Of a DNA stretch of 64,000 nucleotides, positions 16,517-24,153 are shown in pieces. Position 1 is the first letter of the stretch. Each line of letters begins with the position of its first letter. A program made the translations under genes and the position numbers. The stretch covers positions 1 to 64,000 of the forward strand of contig CAKSFQ010000007.1 of the NCBI GenBank assembly GCA_934454115.1, read 5' to 3'. The stretch comes from an uncultured Clostridia bacterium. GTDB taxonomy: Bacteria > Bacillota > Clostridia > Monoglobales > Monoglobaceae. The notes under the pieces are model-generated. The model worked only from the letters and a program-made list of their open reading frames with translations. It did no database searches and was not told where the DNA came from.

Positions 16517-16548
16517 GGCGATGCATTCCGCAATGCATCGCCTTATTT
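16517..16548. terminator. Terminator between manA and pflX-like gene
   Basis: GGCGATGCATT and AATGCATCGCC form a perfect 11-bp stem around CCGC, followed by TTATTTA on plus. It probably acts for both converging genes. Confidence 0.8.
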
Positions 16549-17437
16549 ATGTTTCTCCGTAGTCAAAATTCGGTACATATTCTTCTTTTGCAGAGGAACG
16601 CTCCTGCATATAACCGCGCACAAATCCCAATTCCTGTGCGGCCCCGACCACCTTTTTATATTCAAAGGTGGTAATTCTTCGGTTCAGCGTCTGATCCTCC
16701 TTTGCCAGATGTGCCGGAAAATACTGGCTCATCAGGCTGATCGCCATCTTTTCGGCGTCATAATGCTCCGCCAAGTAATTTAAAATCCGGATGCTGTCCC
16801 GGTAACCGCCGGGCAAAACCAGGTGCCGCACCATAACGCCCTTTTTCATATGCCCATCCTTGTCTGTTTTCGCATAGCCGACCTGGCGCATCATCTCATC
16901 AAGCGCCGCAGCCGCCACTAAAAAATAGTCCGGCGCGGCAGAATACCTTGCGCTCATCGAGGAGGACGCATACTTAAAATCCGGCAAATAAATATCGATC
17001 AGCCCCTCAAGGGCGCGTAGCGACTCCGCCTTATCATAGCCGGAGGTATTATAGATGATCGGAATAGAAAGCTTGGGTCTGACCCTTTGCAGCAGCGGAA
17101 CCAGCCGGGACACCATATGGCTTGGCGTAACCAGGTTGATGTTTGCCGCGCCCCTGTCCTGCAGCGCCAAAATTTCTTCTTCCAGCGTTTTTGCGCTGAC
17201 CTTTTTTCCCTTTCCCTCTGCCGATATCGCATGGTTTTGACAAAACACGCACCGAAGGTTGCAGCCGGAGAAGAAAACCGTCCCGGAGCCGTTGCCGTAA
17301 GAGATACATGGCTCTTCCCACAGATGCAGTCCCACTCTGGCAATCACAAACGCGTCGCCGATGCCGCAAAACCCGGTTTTCTTGCTGCGGTCAACACCGC
17401 ACGCTCTGGGACATGCATTGCAGAATTGCTGATTCAT
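16547..17437 (-). CDS. PflX-like radical SAM protein
   Basis: The 296-aa protein resembles the PFL-activase-related group (PflX type). An N-terminal cysteine cluster (CNACPRACGVD then CG) is followed by the radical SAM motif CNLRCVFCQ near residue 62 and a TIM-barrel core with VTPSHMV and IYNTSGYD. Its substrate is unknown; family members are only presumed to activate glycyl radical or other proteins. The start at 17437 has GGGAGG seven bases upstream. No glycyl radical enzyme is seen in the window. Confidence 0.85.
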   Translation of the reverse strand: MNQQFCNACPRACGVDRSKKTGFCGIGDAFVIARVGLHLWEEPCISYGNGSGTVFFSGCNLRCVFCQNHAISAEGKGKKVSAKTLEEEILALQDRGAANINLVTPSHMVSRLVPLLQRVRPKLSIPIIYNTSGYDKAESLRALEGLIDIYLPDFKYASSSMSARYSAAPDYFLVAAAALDEMMRQVGYAKTDKDGHMKKGVMVRHLVLPGGYRDSIRILNYLAEHYDAEKMAISLMSQYFPAHLAKEDQTLNRRITTFEYKKVVGAAQELGFVRGYMQERSSAKEEYVPNFDYGET

Positions 17438-17460
17438 CTTTCTTCCTCCCAAATACGTTT

Positions 17461-17741
17461 AAGGGGCTGCCGGCGGCAGCCCCTTCAGACTGTCGAAAAA
17501 GTCGGTTTTTAGCAAGATATTGCTTCGAATTGATAGCCCTTCGCCCATAACTCCGCCGCCGCGCCCGTTTGGGCAATGGCGCAATATCTTGCCAAAAACA
17601 GCATGAAATCGGCGAAAAATTTCATTTCTGCGCCGCCGCGGTGGGCAATGGCGGAACAGGGGACGGCGATCAAATCAAAATGAAATTTTTCGCGAAACAT
17701 GTTTATCGACACGCTCAAGGGGCTACCGCCGGCAGCCCCTT
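17461..17741. repeat. Compound repeat with hairpin ends and nested inverted repeats
   Basis: Two nearly identical hairpins bound the element: AAGGGGCTGCC/GGCAGCCCCTT at 17461-17485, and the same with one change at 17717-17741. Inside are two units of about 80 bp. The first is bounded by GCAAGATATTGC (17512-17523) and its complement (17581-17592). The second is bounded by the 16-bp GCGAAAAATTTCATTT (17612-17627) and its complement (17678-17693). Both units contain GGGCAATGGCG (17571-17581, 17643-17653) beside a GCCGCCGCG run, so they look like tandem paralogous copies. A 69-codon frame on minus (17509-17718) runs through it, but no ribosome site supports translation. It resembles a dispersed non-autonomous repeat and may also end transcription of the operon to its right. 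Confidence 0.7.
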
Positions 17742-17757
17742 AATGTTTCTTTCTTGT

Positions 17758-18492
17758 TTATCGTTTGTAATGATAATAACCCTCGCCATCAACCGCGCCG
17801 TCCTCAATCGTGGGAATCAAGCCCAGCACGGGAAGATGAAAGATTGTCTCAATCTCCTCAGCGCTTTTGATGGTCTGATCCAAAAGAAAACGCAGAAATA
17901 CATAGCCTGCTGCAGCGACAAAACCGATGATTGCGCCCAGCGCCGTATTCCGCGGCACGCTCGGAGAAGCCGGAGCCTTCGGCGCCTCGGCCGGGTCGAT
18001 AATCGTTGCGCTGCCGGCCACTACCACGCGTGCAATCTCATCCGGCGCAAGGTTTAAAATTGTATTGGCAAGATTGGCCGCCATCTGCGGATTGGTATGA
18101 CTGACGCTGATTTTCAGTATACCGGTCCCCTCCACATTGGTAATCGTGGACATTCCTTGAATTGCGGCATAGCTGTATCCGCTGTCACTCTTATCCGCAA
18201 CATCTTTAAAAAAGGTGTTGCTGCTCAGTATCTGGCCGTAGGTTTTTGCAAGCTCCTGTGATACCATCAAATCACTCAGATTGGTATCCTGTTTAATACT
18301 GCCTGAAATCGCGTTCACGTCACCCGTAATATAAAGGGTTCCGCTTGCCACATAAATCGGATCCATCATATAGCTTGTATAAAAATACGCTCCAATCGCC
18401 ATAATTAAAGTCGAAATCAAAAGTAAAGGCCATCTGGGGAGCATCAACGCCACCACCTTGCTTATGCTTAATTCTTCGTTCACTTCTGCCAC
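17758..18492 (-). CDS. Wzz/YveK-type chain-length determinant protein
   Basis: A 244-aa membrane protein with the classical Wzz topology. A short cytosolic N-terminus leads to TM1 (about residues 19-42, LLLISTLIMAIGAYFY), a mainly extracellular middle with proline-rich APKAPASPSVP, and TM2 (about 183-203, GAIIGFVAAAGYVFL). Such proteins regulate capsule or exopolysaccharide length, usually with a tyrosine kinase. No CpsD-like kinase or glycosyltransferase set is present here. It is the last gene of the PqqD/HprK-like operon, 9 bp after the SLH gene. Confidence 0.8.
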   Translation of the reverse strand: MAEVNEELSISKVVALMLPRWPLLLISTLIMAIGAYFYTSYMMDPIYVASGTLYITGDVNAISGSIKQDTNLSDLMVSQELAKTYGQILSSNTFFKDVADKSDSGYSYAAIQGMSTITNVEGTGILKISVSHTNPQMAANLANTILNLAPDEIARVVVAGSATIIDPAEAPKAPASPSVPRNTALGAIIGFVAAAGYVFLRFLLDQTIKSAEEIETIFHLPVLGLIPTIEDGAVDGEGYYHYKR

Positions 18493-18501
18493 AATCCTTT
18501 C

Positions 18502-19971
18502 CTATTTTACAAATGCACGAACCGCCCGGTATTTGCTTCCGTCAAGTACAACGTCCATCACCGGTGTCCCTGTTGCAATGTCTATGATATAGCGATCTGC
18601 TTTGTATTCTTGTCCAAAGTCATTGTTTGGCAACAGCTGGTTTAAGGTCAGGTGTTCCGGATTTTCTTTCATCTCAAGCTGAACGCGGATGATGACAGTA
18701 TCCTTTTGCTGCACCACCATGGACGGATAAAAGCTCCATCCAAACTTCACCGAACTCGGGAATTTTTCAGAAATCTGGCTTAAAAATCCTGCAAATGTCG
18801 CAGCAAAATCCTCGCCGAACTGATTAAAGTCCGCCGGCTTTGCCTCGGCAGACATCGGCGTCTCGTAAACGGAAACCGGTACCTCATCTAAGATATAGGC
18901 ATAATCTGCCGCATTCTTCGGATAGGGATAGGTCTGCTTTAAAAAGCGTGTATTGTGTTCATCGCCGTAAGCGTGCGTTAGGCCTACCACCTCGTCAAGC
19001 TGAAGCAGCAGACACGCCGCGTCTTTGACCGTTACTTCATTTTTCGCGCCAAGATAAGGCTCACTGTAGAGTAGGACGTTATTCTTACGGGCAAACTGCA
19101 ACGCCATTTTTGCGTTCTTTTCCGTAATATCTGCATCAGTATAGGTGTCGCTGCCAAAAGAGAGCGCACCGGTTTTCTGCCGCATTGCGTAAAAGCTCAG
19201 CATGGCCGCCGCGTCCTGCACGGTTGCCGTCTTGTCCATATATTCCTTATTTGCCTTATCCTCGCCGATGCACTCTTCGGCAACAAGCTGGATTGCCTTG
19301 GCGTATTCGCCGTCAAAGGACGGTAGCTTTTTTAGGTTGACATAAGAGGGGGTATCTGCCTCGGTGCCGATACGGACTGCTATGCTTGCAATCTGTCCGT
19401 TCGTCAGCGTTTTTGCCTCATCATATGCGATCCCGGTTCTCAGATCATCCCAGACAATACGCAAAATGTCGGAGGAAACAGTATCCTTAAACCCGATATG
19501 CCCAAGCTCTCCCTCACAGCGTACAATCATGGTTGCCGCCTCGGCACGGGTCAGTGTCGAATCCAGACGGAGGTTAAACCCATCGTCCCCCTTCATCACG
19601 CCGCGCGCATATGCCCAGGCAATTGCATCGGGATTATCACTGGTTCTCGTCACCGCAGCCGGTGCAACCTCTGCCGGTTTTCCGGCTCTCTCCCAGAGAT
19701 ATTCCGCCGCCTCGTCACGGGTTGCCGGCCGATCCGGGTAGCGCATGGCGTCCGGGTCGCCGCCTGCCATTTTGGCAAACTGCCAGCGCGTCACCAATTC
19801 ATCCGGCTTAAACTCGCCGTCGGGAAACCCGTTAACACGACCGTCGCTGTGCATTTTATCCACGGCGCTGTATGCCCAATGCTCCTCCGGCAAATCCGGG
19901 AAAGCCGCCGCAAACGCGGACGTGCAAAGCATTGCCGCACAAAGCGGAAGGACAGTCCAAAACTTTTTCAT
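18502..19971 (-). CDS. Secreted SLH-domain protein
   Basis: A 489-aa exported protein with signal peptide MKKFWTVLPLCAAMLCTSAFA and SLH-like segments. These include FPDLPEEHWAYSAVDKMHSDGRVNG at about 24-48 in motif form, a second near 95-130 ending TRAEAATMIV, and a degenerate later one. The C-terminal third (about 370-489) is unassigned and lacks a recognised catalytic motif. SLH repeats bind pyruvylated wall polymers, so the protein probably sits at the surface. Its start codon overlaps the stop of the HprK-like gene (ATGA), so translation is likely coupled. Confidence 0.78.
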   Translation of the reverse strand: MKKFWTVLPLCAAMLCTSAFAAAFPDLPEEHWAYSAVDKMHSDGRVNGFPDGEFKPDELVTRWQFAKMAGGDPDAMRYPDRPATRDEAAEYLWERAGKPAEVAPAAVTRTSDNPDAIAWAYARGVMKGDDGFNLRLDSTLTRAEAATMIVRCEGELGHIGFKDTVSSDILRIVWDDLRTGIAYDEAKTLTNGQIASIAVRIGTEADTPSYVNLKKLPSFDGEYAKAIQLVAEECIGEDKANKEYMDKTATVQDAAAMLSFYAMRQKTGALSFGSDTYTDADITEKNAKMALQFARKNNVLLYSEPYLGAKNEVTVKDAACLLLQLDEVVGLTHAYGDEHNTRFLKQTYPYPKNAADYAYILDEVPVSVYETPMSAEAKPADFNQFGEDFAATFAGFLSQISEKFPSSVKFGWSFYPSMVVQQKDTVIIRVQLEMKENPEHLTLNQLLPNNDFGQEYKADRYIIDIATGTPVMDVVLDGSKYRAVRAFVK

Positions 19972-20852
19972 AGCGATAACTCCTCTCTCACGGTTTTCAC
20001 CGCATCATAAGAAATATTACAGGTTAAACGATAGATCGGTACACGTTCTATCAGTGCGGCGCAATGCTCTGCCGCAAGCGACATGCTGTCCGCAAAAGGA
20101 AACTTTCTGCATTCGCCGAGCAGTCTGCCAAATGCCTGCGCGGTCGGCAGCGGCGCTATGGCATTTTTTTCGCCGCGCTCTAAAAATACGATCGCATGGA
20201 GCGGAACGGAAAGATTCTCGTTCAGTCTGGTCTTGCCGCTCCAGGGGCTGCCGCAGGCCAAAACATGATCCGGCCTGTCCAGCCGCAGCACCGGCGTATC
20301 ATCGTTAATCATTACCGTGTTTGGCACATGCTCTTGCCAAAGCCCGGTATGGGTACTCTTTCCCGTGCCGGACGGCGCAGAAAATAAAATTGCCTTACCG
20401 TCTACCGCGATGCAGGAGCTGTGCAGCACCATGCGCGAATGCCTTAAGCACATATCGCTAAAGGCCTGTCCGGCAAACAAAAAATCACGGGAATCAACCA
20501 TATCGGGATCATCACCATCTGCCGTCTCTTCACCGTCATCCACCGAAAAGACGAAAATATCCGTGCGATCCTGTAAAAAATCCATTCTGGCGCTGACAAT
20601 ATCATCAAATCCCGGCAGCGTCCGCCAGGCGGTGTTGATGCCGTCCTGCTCTGACAGGCGCCAAACCAAGTGATTGGATAAAATTTTACCCGCCGGCTTT
20701 GGAATTTTTGTGCCGCGCTCAATAAAAATCCCCAAATCGCAGATACGCTCCCTCTCGTTTTCAAGAGGGAGCGTATACTTTGCCATACAGGATTTCATAT
20801 ACTCTCTGCCGCCCTGCAACTCCACCGCAAGGCCGGAAATCTCGTATTTCAT
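19968..20852 (-). CDS. HPr kinase/phosphorylase-like P-loop protein
   Basis: The 294-aa protein has an HprK-like C-terminal domain: Walker A FSAPSGTGKSTHTGLW near residue 156, the acidic INDDTPVLRL near 185, and GSPWSGKTRLNEN near 205. The first 120 residues differ from the true HprK N-domain. Such HprK-related kinases occur in peptide-modification clusters (for example lasso-peptide tail kinases), often with PqqD-like proteins, rather than in carbon catabolite control. That fits here, where a PqqD-like gene and a 75-aa peptide gene share the operon. It starts 6 bp after the peptide gene. Kinase activity and substrate are inferred. Confidence 0.8.
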   Translation of the reverse strand: MKYEISGLAVELQGGREYMKSCMAKYTLPLENERERICDLGIFIERGTKIPKPAGKILSNHLVWRLSEQDGINTAWRTLPGFDDIVSARMDFLQDRTDIFVFSVDDGEETADGDDPDMVDSRDFLFAGQAFSDMCLRHSRMVLHSSCIAVDGKAILFSAPSGTGKSTHTGLWQEHVPNTVMINDDTPVLRLDRPDHVLACGSPWSGKTRLNENLSVPLHAIVFLERGEKNAIAPLPTAQAFGRLLGECRKFPFADSMSLAAEHCAALIERVPIYRLTCNISYDAVKTVREELSL

Positions 20853-20858
20853 CGCGTT

Positions 20859-21086
20859 TTATACACCGGTTCCACCGCTGATGGTAGCATCCAAGAGATT
20901 TACCTCCGCGTCAGTTGCCGCCTTCATCAACGCATCATGACCAAACGAACTACCGGTTCCTTTGTACACCGAAGTCGGCACCTTCCTTGCAAAAGCAATG
21001 TGGCTATCTTTTTCCAGGTTTACCGGCTGCAATCTGGGCATCTCAAAGCTACCTGCACCGGCATAACCAAAAGCTAACTTTTTCAT
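20859..21086 (-). CDS. 75-aa peptide, candidate modified precursor
   Basis: A short protein, MKKLAFGYAGAGSFEMPRL at the start and LLDATISGGTGV at the end, without cysteines and without a signal peptide or membrane segment. I take the second ATG (21086), which has AGGAGG nine bases upstream. It lies immediately before the HprK-like gene in an operon with a PqqD-like protein and exporter, the setting of a RiPP precursor. The tail contains Thr and Ser that could accept phosphate. No known RiPP class motif is present, so the role is inference; it could also be a small structural or regulatory protein. Confidence 0.6.
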   Translation of the reverse strand: MKKLAFGYAGAGSFEMPRLQPVNLEKDSHIAFARKVPTSVYKGTGSSFGHDALMKAATDAEVNLLDATISGGTGV

Positions 21087-21109
21087 CTTCATTCTCCTCC
21101 TATCAATGA

Positions 21110-22060
21110 TTATTTCAACAACTCGCCGGCTACATCCGTAGCACCGTTAATGGATAATTTAACATACTTTGCTGCATGGTCTGTTCCGTAATACGCTCTT
21201 GCATATACCGTATTGCCGGTCAAACCACCGTTTGCAAGATCCTGCAGCTTAACTGCGAATTCGCCGTTGCTGCCCTTACCCAATGCCTTGTACTTGGTTG
21301 CGCTGGTAAAATCAGCATTGTCAGCAATCTCAATACCGTAATCGGTAGTTGCGTCATTACCGGTTACCTTACCTGCAACGATCAGAGACTTCACACCGCC
21401 GTCATTTGCGAGGTAACCGCCAGCGAGTGTATCATAAGCAACCGCTACTGCTGCTTCTGCCGTTGTAATCGTAACCGTTGCACCGTTGGTCAAATCACCT
21501 GCCAAAATCCATACGCAACCACTACCTGCAAACCAGTCAACACTCTCCTTACCGGAAACGGTAACACTACTTACCGGGTTAGTATCCGTAAAACTTAATT
21601 GTACATAAGCCGTTGTATCGGACAAATCCACTTCCACACGCGTTGCATCCCCATTATTTACCTTTACATTGACTGCGGTTGCGAGCGCCGGAATGGTGTT
21701 CGTATCGTTAGCTTCAAACGCTGTGCCGTCAGCGCTCTTACCGCCGACCTTAACCTTAGAACCAACATTGTCATTTTTTGTCACATACTCAAACGCTACT
21801 GTTACACCGTCTGCCGTCTTCTGATCGATGTAAACGATCTCACTACCCTGTGTCACAGTCGTTACATTCTTATCATATGCCAGATAAGTGTAAATATTGC
21901 CGGAACTTGCACCACTTACCGTTGAAACAACCTTGATTGTGCCCGTTCCGTTATAAACGGTCGATGTCGACACGTTCGGCGTTGCAGCCGATACCCCAAC
22001 TGTTGCCGCGATGCAGGTCACCCCCACCACTGCACTAACCAATCTTTTTAACACTTGCAT
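21110..22060 (-). CDS. Secreted beta-rich protein of unknown function
   Basis: A 316-aa protein with a clear signal peptide (cleavage likely after VGVSAA, about residue 27). The mature part is rich in Thr, Val, Gly, Ala and Asp and alternates hydrophobic and polar residues, as in stacked beta-sandwich surface domains. No enzyme motif is visible. The annotated ATG is only two or three bases from AGGAGG; a GTG two codons later (22054) has ideal spacing and may be the true start. It sits between the ABC exporter and the small peptide gene, so it may be a partner or scaffold exposed at the surface. I do not recognise the family. Confidence 0.7.
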   Translation of the reverse strand: MQVLKRLVSAVVGVTCIAATVGVSAATPNVSTSTVYNGTGTIKVVSTVSGASSGNIYTYLAYDKNVTTVTQGSEIVYIDQKTADGVTVAFEYVTKNDNVGSKVKVGGKSADGTAFEANDTNTIPALATAVNVKVNNGDATRVEVDLSDTTAYVQLSFTDTNPVSSVTVSGKESVDWFAGSGCVWILAGDLTNGATVTITTAEAAVAVAYDTLAGGYLANDGGVKSLIVAGKVTGNDATTDYGIEIADNADFTSATKYKALGKGSNGEFAVKLQDLANGGLTGNTVYARAYYGTDHAAKYVKLSINGATDVAGELLK

Positions 22061-22106
22061 CTCCTCCTTATGCCCTTGACATAAAAATATATAAAGTTAT
22101 TTATTC

Positions 22107-23753
22107 TTATTCGTGTTGTAGTGTGATCTTGCCGTCTTGCATATGCAGCACACGGTCACAAAGTGCGGATACCGTATCGCGGTGTGTTACAAAAATCACC
22201 GTTCTGCCGCTATGACATAAATGACGTAAAATCTTTTCTTCCGTATCGGCAGACAAGGCTGATGTGGATTCATCCATCAAAAGAACCTGCGCACGGCTGT
22301 ACAGCGCCCTGGCGATCGCCATCCGCTGCCGCTGACCGCCGGAGAGTCTGCCGCCGCCCTCACCCAAAAAGGTGTAAATCCCATCGGGGAGTGCGTCAAT
22401 CACGTCCTCACATTCTGCCATTCGTACTGCCGCTTTGAACCGTTCCATATCCGGTTCTTCTTCAAAAAGAGTGATGTTTTCAAGCACGCTGCCGGAAAGC
22501 AAAAGGAAATCCTGCGGTACATAAGCAAACATGCCGCGCAGCGCACTGTTTAGCGGAACGCCGCCGTTTGCAGTTTTTAACGTAATCGCGCCGGAATCCG
22601 GCCGTAAAATCCCTGCAAGCAGGTTCAGCAGTGTACTCTTTCCCGCACCGGAATGACCGGTGACTGCTGTCAGTTTATTTTTCAAAAACGAGGCATCCGC
22701 ATGCCGCAGCACCGGCAATGTCCCGTACGAAAAATCCAAATCAGAGATTTGTATCTCGAAAAGGCTTTGATAAAGCGCATCGGTATCTGCCGCAGGGAGT
22801 TCTTCCTCCTCCGGCAAATTCCAGATTTCCTCCAAGCGTTCTTCCGAAGCATGGATGGACAAATACTGCGGAAACAAGGATGCCAAGTCGCGAAACGGCG
22901 TTGTCACGTCCCCGGTGAGTCCCAAGACCGCCGTCAAGGTACCGAACGTCATCACACCGCGGGATATCTGCCACGCACCGTAGGCCAACGCCATATAATA
23001 ACCGGCCGACATTGCAACATAAAAACAGATATTTGCCCCGATGCTCAAACGATTTTTGCGGATCGTCAAAGCATACGCGTCATCCTGCGCCCGTCCCAAC
23101 TGACGCAGCACCACAGAATAAACGGAAAAAGCCTTAATTACCGTCAGATTCTGGGCGGTTTCCTGGATAAAGGATCGGATTCTGCCCTCACATGCGCGGC
23201 ATTCCCGAAAGATGTCGCCCGTCATTTTGCGATAAAGCCGCGCAAAACCCAGCATCAATATGCCGGCAAGCACGCACAAAACCGCCAGAACCGAATCCAG
23301 CATCAATAATGCGCCAAAGCTGAGCAGAATCCGCGTCCCCACGGAAATCAGCGAAGGAATCACATTGCCCACGCCCTCTGCCACGATTGAAGAATCCCCG
23401 GATATCCGATTCACCAGTTCTCCGGAATGAAACCCCTCCACCGAACGCTTTTGCTTATGTAAATATCTTTCAAACAGCTGCGACTGAATCTTAAAACGAA
23501 TCTTCGTCACGGTGTCAACGTGCAGCACGGTTAAAAGAACTTCTAACAATAATTGTAATAACAAAACCCCTAAAAGGAGCAACCCGATCGGCAGCAGTCT
23601 GCCCGGAACCTGTCCGGTCGCGGTATCGACCACCTTTTTGGATATCAGTGCCATATAGACGCCGCAGGCAGAGCCGAGCGCCCCCAAAACGGAAAGCACG
23701 GCAATCTTATGCCAGGATCCGGATAGGAATCTGCGGAAAAGATGCTGGTTCAT
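22107..23753 (-). CDS. ABC exporter, fused membrane and ATPase domains
   Basis: A 548-aa MsbA/LagD-type half transporter. Six hydrophobic segments lie in about residues 15-300. These are followed by an ATPase domain with Walker A GHSGAGKST, signature LSGGQRQRMAIARAL and Walker B VLLMDES. There is no N-terminal C39 peptidase domain, so it would not cleave a double-glycine leader itself. The start at 23753 (MNQHLFRRF) has GGGAGGGG close upstream. It is the second gene of the operon, 16 bp after the PqqD-like gene, and is the probable exporter for the peptide or secreted product. Confidence 0.88.
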   Translation of the reverse strand: MNQHLFRRFLSGSWHKIAVLSVLGALGSACGVYMALISKKVVDTATGQVPGRLLPIGLLLLGVLLLQLLLEVLLTVLHVDTVTKIRFKIQSQLFERYLHKQKRSVEGFHSGELVNRISGDSSIVAEGVGNVIPSLISVGTRILLSFGALLMLDSVLAVLCVLAGILMLGFARLYRKMTGDIFRECRACEGRIRSFIQETAQNLTVIKAFSVYSVVLRQLGRAQDDAYALTIRKNRLSIGANICFYVAMSAGYYMALAYGAWQISRGVMTFGTLTAVLGLTGDVTTPFRDLASLFPQYLSIHASEERLEEIWNLPEEEELPAADTDALYQSLFEIQISDLDFSYGTLPVLRHADASFLKNKLTAVTGHSGAGKSTLLNLLAGILRPDSGAITLKTANGGVPLNSALRGMFAYVPQDFLLLSGSVLENITLFEEEPDMERFKAAVRMAECEDVIDALPDGIYTFLGEGGGRLSGGQRQRMAIARALYSRAQVLLMDESTSALSADTEEKILRHLCHSGRTVIFVTHRDTVSALCDRVLHMQDGKITLQHE

Positions 23754-23769
23754 AATACCCCTCCCGCGG

Positions 23770-24054
23770 TCAGGATGTCTGACACGAATCCTCAAAAAGG
23801 AGCTGATTCTCACGAAGCAAGGTCAAAAACGCGGAAACTGCCTCCTGCGCGGTATCACGGGAGATACGATACTCCTCAGCTAAGGTATCAACGAGCGTAT
23901 TCTCGTCCGTTTCTTCTTCCAGAAGCTGCCACAAAAATGCGCCGGTGCGGTTTAGCGACAACATCTGATCCTGAGATTCATACGCCGCGTCATAAGGGAT
24001 TGCAAAGTATTCGCCGGCAATTTCTTTCACCATAAAGCCGTGCTTTATCTGCAT
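23770..24054 (-). CDS. PqqD-like peptide-recognition protein
   Basis: The 94-aa protein MQIKHGFMVKEIAGEYFAIP... has the PqqD-family layout: a beta-hairpin start, LNRTGAFLWQLLEEETDENTL in the middle, and a winged-helix-like helical end. PqqD-type domains (RiPP recognition elements) bind leader peptides and present them to modifying enzymes. The start at 24054 has AGGGGGG nine bases upstream. It is the first gene behind a perfect promoter. No radical SAM, cyclase or leader peptidase partner is encoded nearby; the HprK-like kinase is the only obvious modifier. Confidence 0.85.
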   Translation of the reverse strand: MQIKHGFMVKEIAGEYFAIPYDAAYESQDQMLSLNRTGAFLWQLLEEETDENTLVDTLAEEYRISRDTAQEAVSAFLTLLRENQLLFEDSCQTS

Positions 24055-24124
24055 TCCGTTATGCCCCCCTCGCAAAGATTTATCATACCGATCCATGATC
24101 CCATTTTCTGTTATATACAGTTAG

Positions 24125-24153
24125 ATTATATACTTATTGAAAGCTTCTGTCAA
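24125..24153 (-). promoter_or_regulatory. Consensus promoter of the PqqD/HprK-like operon
   Basis: Perfect TTGACA, 17-bp spacer and perfect TATAAT on the minus strand, about 70 bases upstream of the PqqD-like start. No other strong promoter was seen before 17758, so the seven genes are probably one transcript. Confidence 0.9.

Follow-up and report, generated by a model that had tools for sequence, protein, structure and literature searches.

In a 64,000-nucleotide stretch of contig CAKSFQ010000007.1 (assembly GCA_934454115.1, an uncultured Clostridia bacterium of the Monoglobaceae; the whole stretch is hereafter called the window), seven genes, g1 to g7, lie tightly packed on the minus strand at positions 17758 to 24153, behind a promoter that agrees with the consensus at all 12 positions (Table 1). 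They encode, in order, a PqqD-family protein, an ABC exporter, a secreted protein of beta domains, a short precursor-like peptide, an HprK-like kinase, a surface protein with SLH domains and a Wzz-type protein. An earlier note, made from the letters alone, had placed the genes and promoter in just this way, and that placement stands; the note had gone on to propose a system that recognises, phosphorylates and exports a peptide, unlike described types of ribosomally synthesized and post-translationally modified peptide (RiPP). Those genes of the upstream flank that could be named by eye are housekeeping genes, mutS, mutL and miaA among them. In 39 genomes compared, the best matches to the MutS protein of the window are 52-53% identical. 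A strong hairpin 3' of g7, which is not among the terminators called by a terminator scan, is a possible operon end.

Table 1. Positions of the operon genes and of the sites discussed in the text (RRE, RiPP recognition element; aa, amino acids; nt, nucleotides)
Feature	Position	Strand	Description or basis
Promoter	24125..24153	-	TTGACA-17 nt-TATAAT, 12/12 match to consensus
g1	23770..24054	-	Discrete RRE of the PqqD family, LppB-like; Pfam PqqD, 4.7e-17; most likely start ATG 24054 (94 aa), alternative ATG 24096 (108 aa)
Codon of g1 Ala72 (94-aa numbering)	23839..23841	-	Position of LppB Asp70 in a gap-free alignment of g1 with LppB
g2	22107..23753	-	ABC exporter, MsbA-like/LppD-like, without peptidase domain; Pfam ABC_membrane and ABC_tran; most likely start ATG 23753, 548 aa
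g3	21110..22060	-	Secreted, Ig/FnIII-like beta domains, 316 aa
Thr/Ser-x-Tyr strand of g3	21953-21961	-	At mature start; shared with g4 core 20964-20972
g4	20859..21086	-	Precursor-like peptide, 75 aa
Phe-Glu-Met-Pro of g4, residues 14-17	21036..21047	-	Leader motif, likely RRE-binding; alignment of 16 peptides
Ala-Phe-Ala of g4, residues 31-33	20988..20996	-	Leader end; all 16 window-clade peptides have A31 and A33
Ser39-Val-Tyr41 of g4	20964..20972	-	Predicted kinase target; Ser/Thr-x-Tyr in core, LPP match by eye
g5	19968..20852	-	HprK-like kinase, LppK-like, 294 aa
g6	18502..19971	-	Surface protein with SLH domains and conserved C-terminal part, 489 aa; Pfam SLH
g7	17758..18492	-	Wzz/CpsC-type polysaccharide chain-length protein, 244 aa; Pfam Wzz
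Hairpin 3' of g7	17695..17750	-	Strong; -27 kcal/mol, z -4.72, no T-run

The operon is real and conserved. Relatives were collected with the HprK-like kinase of the window as query, in a scan of genome contigs whose counts, taken over the matches listed, are lower bounds. The order PqqD-ABC-g3-peptide-HprK-SLH-Wzz recurs, with identical direction, in at least three other genomes (G116, G432 and G433, at loci L129, L130 and L131), and all four operons carry the 12/12 promoter upstream of g1. The earlier note had declared beforehand that its proposal would fail if these genes did not keep company elsewhere; in all three loci the order is kept. A further genome (G057, locus L132) has the same seven genes with one more, signal-peptidase-like, inserted between PqqD and ABC.

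One constant association is that of g3 with the peptide. Among 103 loci, each 4 kb or longer and containing some member of the operon (the window included, some loci sharing one genome), g3 is present in 16, and in every one of these a short peptide gene lies directly 3' of it; ten of the 16 also have g6 and five have g7, so that the surface partners to which the earlier note had drawn attention do recur, with the Wzz protein the less frequent of the two. A profile search with g3 in 51 genomes added four peptide-bearing loci (L182, L183, L185 and L190), of which L182, being one cluster with L032, is not counted, and in the protein database seven of 15 peptide relatives could be paired with a g3 relative by equal size of the longest contig. 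Pattern scans for the window-clade peptide in GTDB 220 contigs and IMG/VR returned no relative; because the patterns used the invariant N-terminus, only very close relatives could match, and the more distant peptides of L129 to L131 were reached via the kinase and not via peptide patterns. In the three genomes of L001, L002 and L003 the RRE, LppS and ABC genes lie in a second locus (L161 to L163), apart from g3, peptide and kinase, an arrangement that requires the modules to work in trans. Stretches of 8-13 kb in L184, L186, L187 and L189 have g3-like N-terminal domains beside SLH-type proteins, with no peptide system recognised in them.

The closest described system is that of the linear polyphosphorylated peptides (LPPs), reported in May 2026 from the lpp cluster of Paenibacillus alginolyticus (PMC13381572). 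There the kinase LppK adds one to four phosphates to Ser3 of the core (AQSNWK) and does not tolerate replacement of its Ser by Thr or Tyr, the SipW-like peptidase LppS, aided by the RRE LppB, cuts off the leader, and deletion of LppN, an NTP transferase, causes no visible change (PMC13381572). The window operon shares with it a discrete RRE, an HprK-like kinase, an MsbA-like exporter and no need of a cyclase; a leader with an aromatic-xxP motif, a variable C-terminus and a Ser/Thr early in the core; and polysaccharide genes nearby or linked. Set against the LPP leader motif YxxPxVLxHQxIxFETxxS, g4 has FEMP with Leu, Ile and Ser at similar spacing, but Phe replaces Tyr and the rest has diverged; Y-type relatives are intermediate between the two. 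The differences are that LppS was not found in the window clade and LppN is not in the window operon, that YxxP is replaced by FxxP with a matching change in the RRE and an insertion of 10 residues before the motif, and that g3, g6 and g7 are not seen in the LPP description as far as it was consulted (PMC13381572). The operons of the window, L130 and L131 also lie directly downstream of mutL-miaA (by eye), whereas the distribution of LPPs in Bacilli is called "extremely patchy" (PMC13381572). Judged by sequence, the window operon is a divergent, reduced and specialised LPP variant and not an undescribed RiPP type, and in this respect the earlier note was mistaken, since LPPs have an equivalent RRE, kinase and exporter and lack a cyclase. 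What is new is the set of recurring surface partners, here linked to the LPP family. In the open-access literature PMC13381572 was the only match that pairs "polyphosphorylated peptide" with RiPP, and among the matches listed (mostly open-access) no paper joined S-layer terms with PqqD or HPr kinase.

The sequence matches of g1 in the PDB include TbiB1, PbaB1 (9x90) and LppB (9x8z, E 0.0066), and in the crystal structure of LppB Asp70 hydrogen-bonds the leader Tyr (PMC13381572). At this position all four systems with FEMP leaders have Ala. Asp stands there in 12 further RREs, whose genomes combine a g3-type locus with YxxP leaders. Outside the window clade, the Phe leaders of L056, L062 and L073 are paired with RREs that have Cys, Ala and Ser, respectively. 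Over 33 hand-picked pairs, a Phe leader goes with a non-Asp RRE in 7/7 and a Tyr leader with Asp in 24/26 (Fisher p 8e-6, uncorrected for relatedness; 0.003 when the window clade is excluded). In a small tree Phe falls in two separate groups, one of which includes L069; this implies few events, and the p-value should be read as no more than a guide. The pairs comprise 31 from 97 aligned RRE sequences (duplicates included) together with L183 and L185, their precursors were chosen by eye, and four join an RRE locus to a peptide locus of the same genome; L086 (Tyr, Asp) was left out though it conforms to the rule, L166, the second RRE of G090, is unpaired, and L188 is not in any comparison. The pairing of Phe with non-Asp shows a joint change of RRE and leader, and this co-variation supports the prediction that g1 binds the g4 leader directly.

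In the precursor the first 31 residues are nearly invariant across 16 window-clade peptides while the C-terminus varies; compared with the others, the window clade has about 10 inserted residues before the motif, and FEMP in place of Tyr-x-x-Pro. Beyond the leader, 17 of 19 peptides contain [Ser/Thr]-x-Tyr, six of them as Pro-Lys-Thr-x-Tyr, as against a mean of 5.7 and a maximum of 12 in 2000 trials with shuffled cores, and in 14 peptides the motif begins 4-8 residues into the core. By eye its position is that of Ser-Asn-Trp-Lys in the LPP; in the window it reads Ser39-Val-Tyr41-Lys, within VPTSVYK, and from its conservation in the core Ser39 is the predicted target of phosphorylation. Precursors of other build were also met with: at L016:5756 the leader of an LPP-like precursor is followed by a long Asn-Glu-Ser repeat, and the RRE of that locus carries Ala where LppB has Asp70; L048:7821-9765 and L057:9555-9765 contain YxxP peptides with Cys-containing cores (three and two, respectively), next to genes for an RRE, a kinase, an LppS-like protein and an ABC transporter.

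The kinase g5 has a P-loop (TGKSTH) and an NDD motif that are invariant across 33 sequences, and a fold comparison assigns it a PEPCK-type fold (among the best 50 matches), with no match to the Pfam HPr kinase domain at E up to 1 and nothing useful from its profile against PDB sequences. HPr kinase itself does not figure in the 50 fold matches listed for g5, nor TasA in those listed for g3, and neither absence is informative. For g2 the best NCBIfam match is MsbA, below cut-off. The signal-peptidase-like gene of L132 has a weak NCBIfam match to the archaeal type, also below cut-off, and is taken here as a putative LppS. Searched with this protein, 12 genomes, all of which have the RRE, divide cleanly: LppS is present in 9/9 genomes outside the sister trio and was not found in 3/3 sisters (G116, G432 and G433), nor is it in the window operon. 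A nucleotidyltransferase of the LppN type (PF14907) is nearby in some loci, with none in the window operon; it is unlinked in G116 and was not found in G432 or G433. A lineage in which LppS is seemingly gone while RRE, kinase and exporter are kept offers a natural test of which steps are essential.

Of the surface partners, g6 has 12 relatives with which the alignment runs the length of the protein (30-52% identity). One g7 relative per genome was found in 5/5 genomes searched, each time in the kinase locus. A CpsD relative is present in 7/7 genomes: in G116 it shares the Wzz contig, at a distance of about 7 kb; in the remaining four Wzz genomes it is on other contigs; and in G450 and G252 it is inside the peptide locus. 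A sugar-nucleotide dehydratase is likewise encoded away from the operon, and CpsB-like genes are also present in the genomes examined. The window operon resembles the CpsCD/Wzz tyrosine-kinase systems known from Gram-positive capsules in the type of g7 and in having CpsD and CpsB-like relatives in such genomes, and differs from them in that its Wzz gene sits in a peptide operon. Since the Wzz of the kinase locus is the only one found in each of the five genomes, with CpsD and the dehydratase elsewhere, the peptide is probably produced together with a surface glycan. In L135, L183, L185 and L190 g6 is followed by a membrane protein of about 240 amino acids, as is Wzz in L010; proteins like it (by eye) lie beside CpsD/CapD genes in L167, L195, L196 and L197, and the two tested had no Pfam match.

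We hypothesize, with rather more confidence than doubt, that the product of the operon is an LPP-like linear phosphopeptide for use at the cell envelope, the peptide probably being made, phosphorylated and exported together with two surface proteins and a regulator of sugar chains. In this mechanism g1 would bind the FEMP motif of the g4 leader, as the co-variation suggests; by homology, g5 would then phosphorylate the core, most likely at Ser39, and the MsbA-like transporter g2 would export the product; and outside the cell the peptide would, to judge from conserved gene order, work with g3 and g6. As LppS was not found in the clade, the leader would either stay on or be cut by another peptidase, perhaps after the invariant Ala-Phe-Ala. 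Cleavage there is a guess; the site could be one for a signal peptidase, although the g4 leader is without a long hydrophobic stretch. Homology to LPPs, the pairing of RRE with leader and the conserved Ser/Thr of the core thus lend support to that part of the earlier note which spoke of a peptide recognised, phosphorylated and exported. More broadly, we see a branch of the LPPs with recurring partners, in which g3 adjoins the peptide in all 16 g3 loci, an SLH protein is often present and, in the window clade, the sole Wzz found is included. According to the LPP authors the roles of LPPs and of paeninodins are unknown and a link to biofilms is untested (PMC13381572), and these partners make the open question of LPP function directly testable.

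Several observations weigh against this hypothesis. Phosphorylation and function in this operon are themselves inferred from relatives and from gene order. The rule linking RRE and leader is broken by two Tyr leaders with a non-Asp RRE, in L016 (Ala) and L069 (Gly). Two of the 19 cores (L003 and L141) have no Ser/Thr-x-Tyr, in L001, L002 and L032 the motif lies 18-23 residues into the core, and in 14/17 motifs the first residue is Thr, which the published LppK rejects (PMC13381572), so that the kinases of these relatives must differ. Processing of the leader is left unexplained, and LppS could be encoded elsewhere, the window genome being outside the search and the searched genomes of no stated completeness. 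Neither g6 nor g7 is a constant partner in g3 loci, some of which are cut by contig ends; no g7 was recognised in the peptide loci of G450 and G252, where CpsD is; the g6 gene of L001 to L003 accompanies the RRE and is oppositely oriented; and the g3-like domains of L184, L186, L187 and L189 occur without a peptide system.

This inconstancy of g6 and g7 gives some room to a different view, in which the product is an exported bacteriocin or signal from a full RiPP pathway and the surface and Wzz genes are mere neighbours sharing a promoter. RiPPs typically combine ABC export with a conserved leader and a variable C-terminus, as seen here, and LPPs have as yet no assigned role (PMC13381572). We nevertheless consider it unlikely: g3 is kept with peptide and kinase across divergent genomes, even where RRE, LppS and ABC are elsewhere (L001-L003 versus L161-L163), g6 recurs beside the kinase, and g7 is present in 4/4 window-type operons as well as in L132 and L010.

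It is also conceivable that g5 acts on an envelope protein (g3, g6 or the Wzz/CpsD pair), with the peptide as regulator or cofactor. HprK proper phosphorylates a protein, the operon carries a Wzz, which is the usual partner of a tyrosine kinase (CpsD), and the mature start of g3 has Ser/Thr-x-Tyr in 15/17 loci. The same motif is conserved in the peptide core, however, and LppK phosphorylates its precursor, as do the lasso kinases cited in the LPP report (PMC13381572), and so we think phosphorylation of an envelope protein quite improbable. Still less credible, indeed very improbable, is a split paeninodin-type lasso cluster whose cyclase and B2 peptidase would be encoded at a distance from the operon: a PqqD-type RRE, an HprK-like kinase and an ABC exporter are common to phosphorylated lasso systems, and the best NCBIfam matches of g1 are lasso PqqD models (below cut-off), but the B2 peptidase (PF13471) has no match in any of the 14 genomes searched, three sisters among them and the window genome outside the search, which is the main ground for rejection, the leader has Phe where paeninodin-like leaders have a nearly invariant Trp (PMC13381572), and the seven proteins include, as the earlier note had said, no lasso cyclase and no leader peptidase (no genome-wide cyclase search was made).

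The start of mature g3 invites a more specific form of the envelope hypothesis. In the window the g4 core reads VPTSVYKGTG and the mature g3 start VSTSTVYNGTG, and a likeness that is in part specific to its own lineage is seen in L185 (GNTTTYNLGD and NTTTVYNMGD). Shuffling 5000 times gave a mean of 7.7 and a maximum of 14 for the Ser/Thr-x-Tyr motif at the g3 start, fewer than the 15 observed. In 7/17 loci the best match of the peptide core to its own g3 falls at the mature start, where 1.6 are expected with shuffled cores and about 14% (2.4/17) with foreign peptides; the likeness was noticed after the sequences had been seen and is a lead only. The clearest matches are those of the window and L185, and L141, one of the seven, is weak. 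The comparison omits L190 and L135, in which g3 is cut or partly read, and scores as misses L001 and L002, for which the end of the signal peptide was set too early. It is tempting to speculate that the phosphopeptide, once exported, donates a strand to a surface filament: it would occupy a groove in g3 and so initiate, cap or license a fibre of g3 at g6. TapA works in a like manner with TasA fibres, and SipW is their signal peptidase. SipW is also the relative of LppS named in the LPP report (PMC13381572). The idea is a doubtful one and we hold it loosely, but, if it is true, a RiPP pathway would here control the assembly of a surface structure instead of making an antibiotic.

Two further comparisons concern radical SAM chemistry. 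The proteins g5 and g1 weakly match the NCBIfam models ScmC and ScmD of the SynChlorMet system, with scores far below cut-off (31.3 bits versus 125 for ScmC, 17.6 versus 100 for ScmD) and with no conserved radical SAM partner. Such a partner was considered because a radical SAM gene (16547-17452, on the same strand as the operon) lies about 300 nucleotides downstream of g7; as a conserved part of the operon it was rejected, only 3/97 loci of at least 8 kb having one. Absent from all other loci examined, a radical SAM gene also adjoins the operon in L129 and lies near the kinase genes in L008.

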